A stretch of 35,764 nucleotides of DNA, from contig CALCCF010000096.1 of assembly GCA_937899905.1 (NCBI GenBank), forward strand, positions 1-35,764. Direction: 5' to 3'. The notes below the pieces were generated by a model. It was not told the origin of the DNA, ran no database searches, and saw only the letters and a program-made list of their open reading frames with translations. Of this stretch, positions 25,667 to 31,021 are shown piece by piece; position 1 is the stretch's first letter, and each line of letters starts with the position of its first letter. This DNA comes from an uncultured Phycisphaeraceae bacterium (lineage in GTDB: Bacteria; Planctomycetota; Phycisphaerae; Phycisphaerales; UBA1924). The translations under genes and the position numbers were made by a program.

Positions 25667-25924
25667 ATGGCTAAGAAGACCGCCAAGAAGACCACGAAGA
25701 AGACCGCCAAGAAGACGACCAAGAAAACCACCAAGAAGACGGTCCGCAAGGCTCCCGCGGCCAAGAAGACCACGAAGAAGACCAGCAAGAAGACGACCAA
25801 GAAGACCTCGCGTTCCAGCGGCTCGAGCCGTCGTAGCGCGGGCTCGTCGCGAGGCACATCCAAGTCTGCCAGCGGGCGTAGCACCGTCACGCGGACCAAG
25901 GTCAATTCGATCAGCTCTCGCTGA
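25667..25924 (+). CDS. Lysine-repeat histone H1-like protein
   Basis: This 85-aa protein starts at ATG 25667 with GGGGAG just upstream. Residues 2-50 are made almost entirely of Lys and Thr in units such as KKTTKK and KKTAKKTTKK, with one RKAPAAKK interruption. The rest is Ser/Arg/Gly-rich (SRSSGSSRRSAGSS). This composition is that of eukaryotic H1 tails and bacterial H1-like proteins (Chlamydia Hc1/Hc2, AlgP), which compact DNA without sequence preference. No globular domain is present. The DNA is a degenerate tandem array of AAG and ACC codons, so copy number may vary between strains. The next gene is a DEAD-box helicase with a similar tail. An earlier ATG at 25610 lacks a ribosome site. 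Confidence 0.85.
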   Translation: MAKKTAKKTTKKTAKKTTKKTTKKTVRKAPAAKKTTKKTSKKTTKKTSRSSGSSRRSAGSSRGTSKSASGRSTVTRTKVNSISSR

Positions 25925-25967
25925 ATCTCAGCCTGCGGTCTGCCCGGCTCGCCCCGATCCGATTTTT

Positions 25968-25975
25968 GAAGAGGA
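25968..25975 (+). promoter_or_regulatory. Shine-Dalgarno site supporting a CTG start of the helicase
   Basis: GAAGAGGA lies with its GAGG 8 nt before an in-frame CTG at 25983. No ATG, GTG or TTG is available in this frame between the site and 26118. The GTG at 26118 has no ribosome site of its own. Confidence 0.5.
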
Positions 25976-25982
25976 CATCGCT

Positions 25983-27425
25983 CTGCCCACGCCGAAGAAG
26001 CCATCCAAGACCTCCAAGAAGCCAGCGCCCTCGAAGAAGGGCGCGCGGTCGAGTTCCGGCCCGAAGCCCACATCGAAGTCCAAGACCAAGGACGACGAGA
26101 CGATCTTCGACTCGTCGGTGACCTTCGATGACTTCGACCTTGTCGAGGATGTGCTCGATGGCATCGACGACGAGGGATTCGTCCATCCGACGATGATCCA
26201 GTCGATGCTCATCCCCGTTGCGCTCACCGGCAAGGACGTGCTCGGGCAGGCCAAGACTGGCACGGGCAAGACGGCGGCGTTCGGCCTGCCGTTGCTCTCG
26301 CTCGTGGATCCGGGCGATGGTTTTGCGGCGCTCGTTCTGGCACCGACCCGCGAGCTTGCGCTACAGATTACCGCCGAGTTGCAAACGCTCGGCAAGCACA
26401 GCGGCCTGAAGGTGTGCGCGGTCTACGGCGGCGAGCCCATCGAGAAGCAGGCCAAGCGCCTAAGCCAGAAGCCCGAGATCATTGTCGGCACGCCAGGCCG
26501 AGTCATGGACATGGAGCGCCGCGGCTATCTGCGGTTCGACCGAATCCAGGTCGCCATCCTCGACGAGGTCGACCGCATGCTCGACATCGGCTTCCGCGAG
26601 GACATCCGCCAGATCCTGGGCGTCTGCCCCAAGGACCGGCAGACCATCTTCGTCTCGGCCACGCTGACGCCGGAGATCGAGAAGCTCGCGCGGAAGTACA
26701 TGAACGACCCCGAGAAGCTGGTCGCCTCGGCCGGCTCGCTGACGGTCAGCGTGGTCGAGCAGCACTACCTCACCGTGCAGCCCTGGGACAAGAAGCGGCT
26801 GCTCGTCCACCTCCTCACGCACGAGGAGCCCGCGCTCACCGTCGTCTTCTGCCGGCTCAAGCGCGTGGTCGACGACCTCGAGAAGCTCCTGCAAAGCAAG
26901 GGCATCGATGCGGTGGCCATCCACGGCGACATGCGTCAGAGCCGGCGCAACAGCGTGATGGGCAAGCTGCGGACGGGCAAGCTGGGCGTGCTCATCGCCA
27001 GCGATCTGGCCAGCCGCGGCATCGACGTCGAGGGCATCAGCCACGTCATCAACTACGACCTGCCGGAGGACCCGGACCTCTACATCCACCGCATCGGGCG
27101 CACGGCGCGGGCCGGCCGCGGCGGCATCGCGTGGAGCCTGGTCACGCCCGAGCAGGGCAAGCTGCTCACCGAGATCGAGACGCGAATCAACACGCACATC
27201 CCGTACATGGCCTACCCGGACTTCGAGCCGGGGCCCGAGCCCGATTCCGTGCGGCAGAAACGTGAGCTCGATGCGATGCGCGATGAGCGCTCGAAGCAGC
27301 GCACGCTCGAACGCATGGGCAAGGTGCTGCCGAAGGACGCCGACGAGAGCAAGTTCCCCGGCGGCGTTGTGCCAACGAAGCTTCCGCCCAAGCGTCTTGG
27401 TGGGCGGATCTCGGGCCGTCGCTGA
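25983..27425 (+). CDS. DEAD-box RNA helicase with lysine-rich N-terminal tail
   Basis: The helicase core begins at GTG 26118 (435 aa from there). It has the Q motif (FVHPTMIQ), AKTGTGKT (45-52), PTRELALQ (78-85), GTPGR, DEVD at 150-153 in place of DEAD, SAT, and HRIGRTARAGRGG in the second RecA-like domain. It should unwind RNA in the cytoplasm, for example in ribosome assembly or mRNA decay. In frame upstream lie 45 codons for a tail (PTPKKPSKTSKKPAPSKK and on to SKSKTKDDETIF) with about 90% G or C in the third position, so this part is surely translated. The best start is CTG 25983 behind GAAGAGGA; ATC 25977 or ATT 25962 are alternatives. Standard gene callers would give 26118. Confidence 0.88.
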   Translation: MPTPKKPSKTSKKPAPSKKGARSSSGPKPTSKSKTKDDETIFDSSVTFDDFDLVEDVLDGIDDEGFVHPTMIQSMLIPVALTGKDVLGQAKTGTGKTAAFGLPLLSLVDPGDGFAALVLAPTRELALQITAELQTLGKHSGLKVCAVYGGEPIEKQAKRLSQKPEIIVGTPGRVMDMERRGYLRFDRIQVAILDEVDRMLDIGFREDIRQILGVCPKDRQTIFVSATLTPEIEKLARKYMNDPEKLVASAGSLTVSVVEQHYLTVQPWDKKRLLVHLLTHEEPALTVVFCRLKRVVDDLEKLLQSKGIDAVAIHGDMRQSRRNSVMGKLRTGKLGVLIASDLASRGIDVEGISHVINYDLPEDPDLYIHRIGRTARAGRGGIAWSLVTPEQGKLLTEIETRINTHIPYMAYPDFEPGPEPDSVRQKRELDAMRDERSKQRTLERMGKVLPKDADESKFPGGVVPTKLPPKRLGGRISGRR

Positions 27426-27446: not shown

Positions 27447-27833
27447 CTAATCGCCGAGCTTGGCCAGCGCCTTCTCGCGCGACTTGGTGATCGTGAACAG
27501 GCGATCGACCTTGGTCGTCTTGAGCACGCTCGCGATCGGGCTCGCCAGCCCGCTAATCGCCAGCGAGCCGCCGGCGTTCGCGCAGGCTTCACGCAGTTGC
27601 ACCAGCATCGAGATGCCGGCACTGGACATGTACTCGACGCGCGCCATGTCCAGCAGGACGCGGCCGTTGGACCGCTCGACGTCGCCGACCACCTCTGCGA
27701 GTACGCTGGTCGAGTCACTCTCGGTGATGCTCGGGCCCTTGGGCGTGATGACCAGCATGCCTTGCGTGGTCTCTCGGGTGGTATTCGGGCCGTCGATGAT
27801 CGAAGCGCCCTCGGGCGTCGCGTTGGTGGTCAT
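27447..27833 (-). CDS. STAS-domain anti-sigma factor antagonist-like protein
   Basis: This 128-aa protein starts at ATG 27833 with AGGGAG 7 nt upstream. Residues of about 25-125 form a STAS domain: a strand GMLVITPKG, the helix region DSTSVLAEVVGDVERS, strand RVLLDMARVEY, and MSSAGISMLVQLREA (69-83). Ser70 or Ser71 stands where SpoIIAA-type antagonists are phosphorylated. It would switch partners with an anti-sigma factor kinase, but no such kinase is in the window. The last 15 residues (ITKSREKALAKL) are charged. It converges on the helicase gene 21 nt away. Confidence 0.88.
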   Translation of the reverse strand: MTTNATPEGASIIDGPNTTRETTQGMLVITPKGPSITESDSTSVLAEVVGDVERSNGRVLLDMARVEYMSSAGISMLVQLREACANAGGSLAISGLASPIASVLKTTKVDRLFTITKSREKALAKLGD

Positions 27834-27892
27834 GCGCGGTCTCCCTATTCGCGAGCGGCTTCCCCATATCGTCGCCACTAAGCTCGTGAGCG

Positions 27893-27898
27893 ATAGTA
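27893..27898 (-). promoter_or_regulatory. -10-like element upstream of the STAS gene
   Basis: TACTAT on the minus strand lies 59 nt before the ATG. The 10-mer GTGTACTATC occurs here and again at 2206-2215 upstream of the acyl-CoA ligase, in the same orientation. No clear -35 box is seen, so the assignment is weak. Confidence 0.3.
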
Positions 27899-28093
27899 CA
27901 CACCCGCCCGTCCTGCCCTGGGTATCGGCAAAAACCACTCTCCAGATGCGTACTGGCTGCGTCTGATCGCCCTGCAGGTTCCTCGTCTCGCCGTGCGTGA
28001 AACGGGGGTGTCTCCTCTCCGGTACAACCCAGCGAGGGGGCGTGCGCCCTGAAGCTGGCATCTGGGACATCAATCGACGAGGGGAAGACGATC

Positions 28094-29461
28094 ATGCACA
28101 CGACCACGACAGACCCCGTACGGGCCATCACGCTGGCAGCGATGACCGCTGTGGCCGCTAGCGCTGCCGGACAGTGTGTTCCCGTCTGGGACCCGACCAT
28201 CGGCGTGCCGGGCGTCGATGACGGGTACGTCCAGCCGTTCCAGGTCTGGGACGACGGCAGCGGCGAAGCTCTGTTTGCCGGCGGCGCGTTTGGCAGCATC
28301 GGCGGGGCTGCGGGAACGACACTCATCGGCCGCTGGGATGGCAGCGAGTGGTCCGCCGTTGGCAGTCCCGGCCTAAGCACGGGCAGCACCAACGGCTTTC
28401 TCACCAGCATGGCCATCTTTGACGTCTTTGGCACCGAACGACTTGTGGCCGGCGGCTTCTTCGCCAGCGCGGGCGGCATCTCCGACACGCAGTCGATCGC
28501 AACGTGGGACGGCACTGTCTGGAGCAACATGGGCTCTGGGCTCACCGCCCCGGACGCCGTGTGGGCGATGGCGACCGGCGACGTCGGCGATGGCGAGCGG
28601 CTCTTCGTGGGCGGGTCGTTCGAGAGCATTGGCGGCGGGCCGGCGGGCGGCATCGCGCAATGGGACGGCGAGAACTGGGCCGCCGTGGGTAGCGGCGATC
28701 CGCTCACCGGCCTAGTCACGCCCAACGTGTTCGGCACGATCGTCTTCAATGACGGCTCGGGCCCGGCGCTGTATGCGGGCGGTCGGTTCGATGAGATCGA
28801 CGGCGCGACGGGTACGACGCTCCTCGGGCGATTCCGCGACGGAGCGTGGGAGCCGGTCGGCGCCGGCCTGACGCGCACCTCGATCACCGGCGACGCGGGC
28901 CAGCTCGAAGTGTTCGACGACGGCAGCGGTGCCGCCCTGTACGTCGCGGGGCGCAGCTTCTTTCCGACCGGTCTTGGCGCGGTCGCGGATGTGTACAGGT
29001 GGGACGGCACCGAGTGGACGGCCGTCGGGCAGGACATCGCTGGAGTCGTGACCGATCTCGAAGTGTGGGACGATGGCAGCGGGCCGGCGTTGTACCTGAC
29101 GAGCACGAGCGGGGCCGGTCGCATCGCGCGATTGCAGGATGACGAGTGGGTCACCGTGGACGGCGGAGCCGAGGGCGGCTCGGCGTTCGGCCTGGGCGTC
29201 TGGCACGGCGACCTGTACGTCGGCGGCAGCTTCAGCACGGTGAATGGCGAGTCTGCCAACGGCGTGGTGCGTCGCAGCGGCTGCCCGGCTCCGGACTGCT
29301 ACGCCGACTTCGACGGCGACGGCAGCCTCAATATCTTCGACTTCCTGGCATTCCAGAACGCCTTCGACTCGGGCGACGCGGCGGCGGATTGCGACGAGGA
29401 CGGCAGCCTGACGCTGTTTGACTTCCTCTGCTTTCAGAACGCCTTCGACGCGGGCTGCTAG
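28094..29461 (+). CDS. Secreted repeat protein with GC-type dockerin-like doublet (tandem copy 1)
   Basis: This 455-aa protein starts at ATG 28094 behind GAGGGGA. The signal peptide ends near residue 26 (AAMTAVAASAAGQ). Residues 30-395 carry at least seven repeats of the form GxxLFAGGxFxxIGGxxxxxIAxWDGxxWxxVG, which suggests a beta-propeller. The last 54 residues are the doublet, from CYADFDGDGS to FDAGC. It has the extra Cys pair, ADCDEDG and FDFLCFQ. The protein ends exactly at the Gly-Cys. It should be exported. It is a paralogue of the next gene, and both share the segment SPGLSTGSTNGFLT or its near twin. Function and ligand are unknown. Confidence 0.85.
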   Translation: MHTTTTDPVRAITLAAMTAVAASAAGQCVPVWDPTIGVPGVDDGYVQPFQVWDDGSGEALFAGGAFGSIGGAAGTTLIGRWDGSEWSAVGSPGLSTGSTNGFLTSMAIFDVFGTERLVAGGFFASAGGISDTQSIATWDGTVWSNMGSGLTAPDAVWAMATGDVGDGERLFVGGSFESIGGGPAGGIAQWDGENWAAVGSGDPLTGLVTPNVFGTIVFNDGSGPALYAGGRFDEIDGATGTTLLGRFRDGAWEPVGAGLTRTSITGDAGQLEVFDDGSGAALYVAGRSFFPTGLGAVADVYRWDGTEWTAVGQDIAGVVTDLEVWDDGSGPALYLTSTSGAGRIARLQDDEWVTVDGGAEGGSAFGLGVWHGDLYVGGSFSTVNGESANGVVRRSGCPAPDCYADFDGDGSLNIFDFLAFQNAFDSGDAAADCDEDGSLTLFDFLCFQNAFDAGC

Positions 29462-29572: not shown

Positions 29573-29629
29573 CTGTCCCACAGACCCCGACACTGAAACT
29601 CAAATCCAAGGAATATGGGAGCCCGCTCC

Positions 29630-31021
29630 ATGAACCGCTTCGCCCTCGCCTCGCTGACCATCCCGTGCCTCACGCTCGCCGCCGCCGGCCAGTGCACCTC
29701 CGTCTGGGACGGCTCGTTGGGCCTGCCCGGCATCGACCGCGGCTACATCCAGCCCATGATGAACTGGGACGACGGCACCGGGGAGCGCCTGTACGTCGGC
29801 GGCTCGTTCAACGCCGTCCGCGGCGTACCGGGCTCGACGATCCTGGCCCAGTGGGATCGCGACACCAACACCTGGGACCGAGTCGGCACGCCCGGACTCA
29901 GCACCGGCAGCACCAATGGGTTTCTGACCAACATCATGCCGTTTGAGGTCCTTGGCGAGGAACGTCTGGTTGTCGCCGGCTTCTTCGCCAGCGCGGGTGG
30001 CGTCGCCGATACCCGCTCCATCGCCGCTTGGAACGGCACCGAGTGGATCTCAATGTCGGCCGAACTGCCCTCGCCGCAGAGCATCTGGGCCATGACCACG
30101 GGCGACGTCGGGCAGGGCGAAAACCTGATCATCGGCGGAGCGTGGCCCGAGATCGGCGGCACATTCGGAGCCGACCTCGCGCAGTGGGACGGCGATGAGT
30201 GGCTGCCCATCGGTGACGGCTCTGGCATCACCGGCGGATTCAGCCCCACGGTCTTTGCTGCCCAGATGTTCGATGACGGCACCGGCCCGGCGCTCTACGC
30301 CGGCGGTCGCTTCGACAGCATCGGCTTCGCGCCCAACACCGCCGTGTTTGGTCGCTTCAACGGCACCGAATGGGAAGCGGTTGGCGGCGGCTTGAACCCC
30401 GAGGACTTCCTGTCGTCGATCAACGCGATGGCCGTGTTCGATGATGGCACCGGCGAGGCCCTGTATGTTGGCGGCAGCGACGTCTTCGCCCCGGGGCAGC
30501 CATTCTCGAGCGTGTACAAGTGGGATGGTGTCGCGTGGTCGGCCATCGGCCAGGAGTTTGGCGGCCGGGTGACCGACCTGAAAGTCTGGGACGACGGCAC
30601 CGGCCCGGCCCTGTACGTCTCGGGGACGGCGGTTCCAGACATCCAGTACGTCGCCAAGCTTGAAGGCGACGAATGGGTTCCGCTCGCCGGTGGAGCCGCC
30701 AGCCAGCCCGCAACCAGCGGCTCGTTCGCCAGCGTCTTCGGCCTGCACGTATGGGATGGCGACCTGTACGTTGGTGGCAACTTTACGCTCGTCGGCGACC
30801 CGGCCATCGAGGCCCGCGGCATCGTCCGTCGCACCGGTTGCGCGACACCCGACTGCTACGCCGACTTCGATGACGACGGACGCCTTTCGCTCTTCGACTT
30901 CCTCGCCTTCCAGAACGCGTTCGACGCGGGCGATACCGCCGCCGACTGCGATGACGACGGCCGCCTCTCGCTCTTTGACTTCCTGTGCTTCCAGAACGCG
31001 TTCGACGCGGGCTGCGACTGA
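29630..31021 (+). CDS. Secreted repeat protein with GC-type dockerin-like doublet (tandem copy 2)
   Basis: This 463-aa protein starts at ATG 29630, with GGGAG 8 nt upstream; an ATG at 29615 would add five residues. The signal peptide is FALASLTIPCLTLAAAGQ. The repeats match copy 1 closely in order and spacing, for example ERLVVAGFFASAGGVADTRSI and GTGPALYAGGRFDSIG. The final 55 residues are the doublet CYADFDDDGR to FDAGCD, with the same extra Cys pair (ADCDDDG, FDFLCFQ). Local duplication followed by divergence is the simplest origin. Function is unknown; export and surface location are inferred from the signal peptide. Confidence 0.85.
   Translation: MNRFALASLTIPCLTLAAAGQCTSVWDGSLGLPGIDRGYIQPMMNWDDGTGERLYVGGSFNAVRGVPGSTILAQWDRDTNTWDRVGTPGLSTGSTNGFLTNIMPFEVLGEERLVVAGFFASAGGVADTRSIAAWNGTEWISMSAELPSPQSIWAMTTGDVGQGENLIIGGAWPEIGGTFGADLAQWDGDEWLPIGDGSGITGGFSPTVFAAQMFDDGTGPALYAGGRFDSIGFAPNTAVFGRFNGTEWEAVGGGLNPEDFLSSINAMAVFDDGTGEALYVGGSDVFAPGQPFSSVYKWDGVAWSAIGQEFGGRVTDLKVWDDGTGPALYVSGTAVPDIQYVAKLEGDEWVPLAGGAASQPATSGSFASVFGLHVWDGDLYVGGNFTLVGDPAIEARGIVRRTGCATPDCYADFDDDGRLSLFDFLAFQNAFDAGDTAADCDDDGRLSLFDFLCFQNAFDAGCD

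Follow-up and report, generated by a model that had tools for sequence, protein, structure and literature searches.

The DEAD-box RNA helicase encoded in the window (the whole stretch of 35,764 nucleotides that was analysed) very probably starts at the CTG codon at position 25983, which was found, together with an upstream Shine-Dalgarno (SD) sequence, to be conserved in six of seven genomes of a genus of Phycisphaerae-type planctomycetes. The helicase frame, by direct reading, ended at 27425 and was open back to 25626. The first-pass annotation had described this frame as lacking an ordinary start ahead of GTG 26118, and its details were confirmed: no ATG, GTG or TTG was found in the 119 codons before CTG 25983 or in the 44 codons after it, the GTG at 26118 followed at exactly 45 codons, and GAAGAGGA was found at 25968-25975, its end separated from the CTG by 7 nt. 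The features are listed in Table 1.

Table 1. Features at the helicase locus of the window and the basis on which each was assigned.
Feature	Position	Strand	Basis
Lysine-rich H1-like small protein, 85 aa, upstream of the helicase	25667..25924	+	H1-like name given by eye
SD core AGAGGA, ending 7 nt ahead of the CTG	25970..25975	+	Invariant in 6/6 species at 7-8 nt
CTG, very probable start codon of the helicase	25983..25985	+	Matching codon at the coding onset in 6/7 genus genomes
N-terminal lysine/serine/proline-rich tail, 47 codons, ahead of the FDDF core	25983..26123	+	Codon-position signal
DEAD-box RNA helicase (480 aa when counted from the CTG)	25983..27425	+	PF00270 and PF00271 matches
GTG, first in-frame ordinary start after the CTG, judged not to be the start	26118..26120	+	Lies after the conserved ETIFD

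The genus comprised seven genomes in the searched set, and the helicase orthologues of the six others showed 81-87% identity. A conserved CTG-CCN-x-x-Lys-Lys sequence (LPxxKK) was found at the equivalent place in six of the seven genomes (G000, G001, G002, G003, G005 and G006), 44-67 codons ahead of the FDDF core. The tails of these six species were all in frame, with conserved LPxxKK and D-[EA]-TIFD at their ends. The earlier proposal that the CTG behind GAAGAGGA is the start was supported by the relatives, since CTG and AGAGGA were present in six of the seven genus genomes; the site at which an ATG had been proposed to be sought in relatives was likewise occupied by CTG in six of seven. The conserved codon and SD sequence that mark the class of near-cognate starts were thus found together in these six, and the remaining genome (G004) contained a fusion with neither.

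The AGAGGA core was invariant in all six species and was placed 7 or 8 nt before the CTG. The blocks 5′ of it (10, 10, 20 and 20 nt) showed a mean pairwise identity of 0.33-0.42 with no invariant column, and the last 7 nt before the CTG showed an identity of 0.42 with one invariant column. At fourfold-degenerate sites of the core, pairwise identity among the same species was 0.61, with 48 of 202 sites invariant. AGAGGA is best read as selected, because a six-base invariant run stands behind random-like 5′ flanks at SD distance from a conserved codon. It was found at 6-9 nt ahead of none of 154 control in-frame CTGs (GAGG at 6-10 nt: 4 of 154), and CTG 25983 was the only one of the 1202 CTGs on both strands of the window to contain it at that distance, with GAGG at 6-10 nt found for 19 of them. 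The pairing energy of the SD was moderate, both in the window alone (-5.8 kcal/mol, equalled by 25.5% of 188 control in-frame CTGs) and in G002 and G005 (-6.9, equalled by 12.8% of controls). Conservation of the CTG by itself was a weak signal, as 6 of 44 invariant leucine columns, the start column included, were CTG in all six species. The case for the CTG start rests on conservation and not on SD strength.

The coding signals, as judged from codon positions, switch on at the CTG. Among the six species, the differences at codon positions 1/2/3 numbered 58/40/44 over the 18 nt leading up to the CTG and 17/0/32 over codons 2-6. Pooled G+C at the three positions was 0.71/0.66/0.70 for the 60 nt preceding the CTG and changed to 0.48/0.59/0.87 for the tail and 0.68/0.42/0.92 for the body; in the window, the 60 nt preceding the CTG gave 0.75/0.50/0.55 and the tail gave 0.38/0.60/0.91, in agreement with the third-position bias noticed at first. 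In G005 and G006, third-position G+C was 0.85 already ahead of the CTG, and an in-frame TGA 22-23 codons upstream was found to shut the helicase frame. The predicted structure of the 40 nt centred on the CTG was weak in all six loci (-2.8 to -7.3 kcal/mol), compared with means from -11.1 to -12.7 kcal/mol in windows farther downstream, in the gene body and 3′ flank of each locus. The CTG region was more weakly structured than 89-99% of these windows, 1-11% of them being equally weak. The 106 nt at 25925-26030 of the window folded worse than all of 200 shuffles (z 2.73), and no RNA family was matched in the window by Rfam at the gathering score.

Ordinary starts were absent from the upstream stop to the last four pre-core codons in five of the six species, as is expected of the near-cognate start class. 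In G001, a single-contig genome, no ATG, GTG or TTG was found between the stop, which lies 77 codons upstream, and codon +67; the core begins at +58, and the first ordinary start lies nine codons inside it. The exception was G002, in which an in-frame TTG precedes the CTG by 22 codons and an ATG follows it by six, either of which could serve there; by its sequence it is the least clear member, though its SD spacing fits the CTG. That the helicase starts at GTG 26118, with the preceding open frame untranslated, is improbable. This GTG is the first ordinary start in the window and is matched by GTG in G005 and G006 and by TTG in G002, but the codon at its place is not an ordinary start in G001 or G003 (in G003 the nearest is an ATG two codons before it), no GAGG was found ahead of it, and it is preceded by the conserved D-[EA]-TIFD and a tail with coding bias. 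A protein beginning at 26118, named at the outset as the outcome that would overturn the CTG start, is therefore disfavoured, as G001 and G003 contain no start codon there.

Two further options raised by the first-pass annotation were not upheld. The ATT at 25962 and the ATC at 25977 are both in frame in the window, but the ATT precedes the SD, the ATC follows it by only 1 nt, and neither was kept in the other five CTG genomes, so that there is next to no likelihood of a start at either. An ordinary start hidden by a sequence error is conceivable for a draft of 113 contigs such as the window genome, but the CTG and SD were found again in five other genomes, including a single-contig one, and the same error would need to have arisen independently in all six; its probability is negligible. 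The conserved CTG is neither a sequencing error nor an accident, since it was kept with its ribosome-binding site in six of the seven species.

The H1-like gene and the helicase were found as two adjoining genes in six species of the genus. The 104-aa version of the H1-like protein had no Pfam or NCBIfam match. In G004, which lacks the CTG and the SD, the two were found to form one in-frame frame of 697 aa (L008, G004:C2, about 799-2892), in which a KKT-rich H1-like part was joined via a long Arg/Asp-rich linker. The adjoining genes and the fused frame might suggest that the helicase is produced elsewhere as an extension of the H1-like protein, via ribosomal frameshifting or stop readthrough. 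Such an extension would need a constant frame relation, but that relation was split evenly, three species having +1 and three 0, the distances from the H1-like stop to the CTG were 58, 72, 63, 235, 232 and 228 nt, and the differences before the CTG were scattered over all three codon positions. Extension was rejected as very improbable. When the core sequences were placed in a tree together with 23 from outside the genus, the first genus branch was G002, which has the CTG, and G004 was nested (support 89/77); therefore, the CTG start is probably the older state of the genus and the G004 fusion is derived, with moderate support and a long G004 branch. The helicase of L124 (G108) has, behind an ATG, its own long lysine-rich tail of the KKAAKK type, which perhaps arose when such a tail was joined to this helicase on a separate occasion.

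Outside the genus, 101 helicase loci were collected, comprising 78 of 80 kept from 445 relatives and 23 from a family search (147 of the 163 genomes covered matched at 1e-150; 30 loci were fetched, seven of them from the genus). L032 and L033 were excluded as copies of G003 and G002 with identical start-region sequence, and 13 loci were dropped because they were identical in sequence beyond the Walker motif, leaving 88. Only one of the 88 (L106, whose frame runs off the contig) lacked an ATG, GTG or TTG before the core. An ordinary start with an SD-like tetramer was found in only 33 of the 88, and start assignments among the outside loci are thus tentative. The related helicases L058, L070, L071, L081 and L082, with L055 and L069, contained a common in-frame TTG (L-TTSTDK) with no clear SD; a pre-core ATG was absent from the first five and present in L055 and L069. 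This TTG may be the start in the group.

The helicase contained the DEAD domain (PF00270, 1.3e-47, 162.1 bits) followed by the Helicase_C domain (PF00271, 1.3e-31, 109.5 bits), which places it among the DEAD-box proteins. It resembles the CshA/DeaD-type RNA helicases in these domains and in its best NCBIfam match, CshA (NF053631), but differs from the CshA type in scoring 439.7 bits against a curated cut-off of 646, below that of a CshA equivalog, and in its lysine-rich N-terminal tail. A STAS-domain protein (PF01740) was found at 27447-28073 on the minus strand, convergent with the helicase. The neighbours at 28094-29461 and 29615-31021 were similar, both contained a terminal repeat of the CYADFDxDGxLxxFDFLAFQNAFD type, and by eye they look like a duplication.

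The sequence GGATCACCTCCTTT was present in all seven genomes of the genus, and a 16S 3′ tail with CCTCC was read in five (G000, G001, G002, G003 and G006). Eight GGATCACCTCCTTT loci were read, five of them 16S 3′ ends and three non-16S (L148, L151 and L152, from G001, G004 and G005); the latter showed an EILTE-RHWITSF protein frame by eye, and the sequence there probably lies inside a conserved protein frame, likely as a coding coincidence. The initiator-type stem-loop GGGCTCATAACCC was found once per genome in all seven, in a tRNA-Met with anticodon CAT, and with this canonical stem-loop an unusual initiator tRNA was rejected as the cause of the probable CTG start. The infC gene, which encodes IF3, is known to start at AUU, AUC or AUA and to be autoregulated by IF3, in E. 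coli through its weak start. In the seven genus genomes (L141-L147), infC contained a conserved ATC behind AAGGAG, opening IRGRRFYR, followed by GTG 12 codons and ATG 20 codons past the ATC; infC appears to begin at this ATC, in agreement with the known habit of the gene.

Initiation at the helicase CTG would proceed by binding of the 30S subunit to AGAGGA, which would put CUG in the P site, where the ordinary initiator tRNA (anticodon CAU) would pair with it at positions 2 and 3 and be mismatched at position 1. The protein should begin with fMet-Pro, with methionine as the presumed first residue. Such initiation would be expected to be weak and open to proofreading by IF3. Low-level use of the CTG is likely, and the start codon probably holds the helicase at a low, adjustable level; the CTG start may have a regulatory role. 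That the infC AUC and the helicase CUG form one circuit, in which the IF3 level or loosened proofreading (for example in the cold) would set the amount of a ribosome- or degradosome-linked helicase, is a speculative and rather unlikely possibility.

By its conserved codon and SD, the probable helicase start belongs to the known class of conserved near-cognate (weak) start codons, as a member with CTG. It resembles infC of the same seven genomes, apparently started by ATC, in being a conserved near-cognate start with an SD. It differs in that infC encodes the discriminating factor itself, whereas here the codon is CUG with a first-position mismatch and the product is an RNA helicase. The starts of Staphylococcus cvfC1 (AUU) and ccpN (AUA) are similar in that a near-cognate codon and its SD are conserved between species, but those codons have a third-position mismatch, were supported by Ribo-RET and reporters, and lie behind SDs termed strong and extended, whereas a 6-nt core is conserved in the helicase; the conserved weak starts with SDs were reported there to yield, in poor medium, about 10% of the output of AUG (PMC13009471).

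Reports on CUG itself are mixed. A study of E. coli 70S complexes containing a variant initiator tRNA described the first position of CUG as too distant for strong pairing, and both wild-type and variant tRNA as inefficient at CUG initiation (PMC11497404). Four novel CUG-started proteoforms were reported from Salmonella by Ribo-RET (PMC11005335). The CUG of Caulobacter dnaA, which has an SD, was reported to give a toeprint yet to be unused in vivo (PMC8443254), and CTG behind an SD was reported as not enriched in mycobacteria (0.03%; PMC4633059). A chloroplast reporter study refers, where it discusses CUG, to a lack of expression, and cites another work according to which CUG is annotated as the start of 20 ORFs (0.024%) among 69 model bacterial genomes (PMC9845219). 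In the literature covered on bacterial CTG/CUG starts, infC, CTG-started DEAD-box genes and non-canonical starts in Planctomycetes, with most subscription papers outside the coverage, no report was recognised as the helicase case.

CTG is among the rarest bacterial start codons, and a CTG start kept across species is rare. Gene finders limited to ATG, GTG and TTG would place the helicase start at 26118 in the window, and inside the core in G001. Studies of start-codon proofreading would gain from the helicase a CUG case conserved in nature, and between-species conservation of codon positions and of the SD can point to such starts without proteomics.
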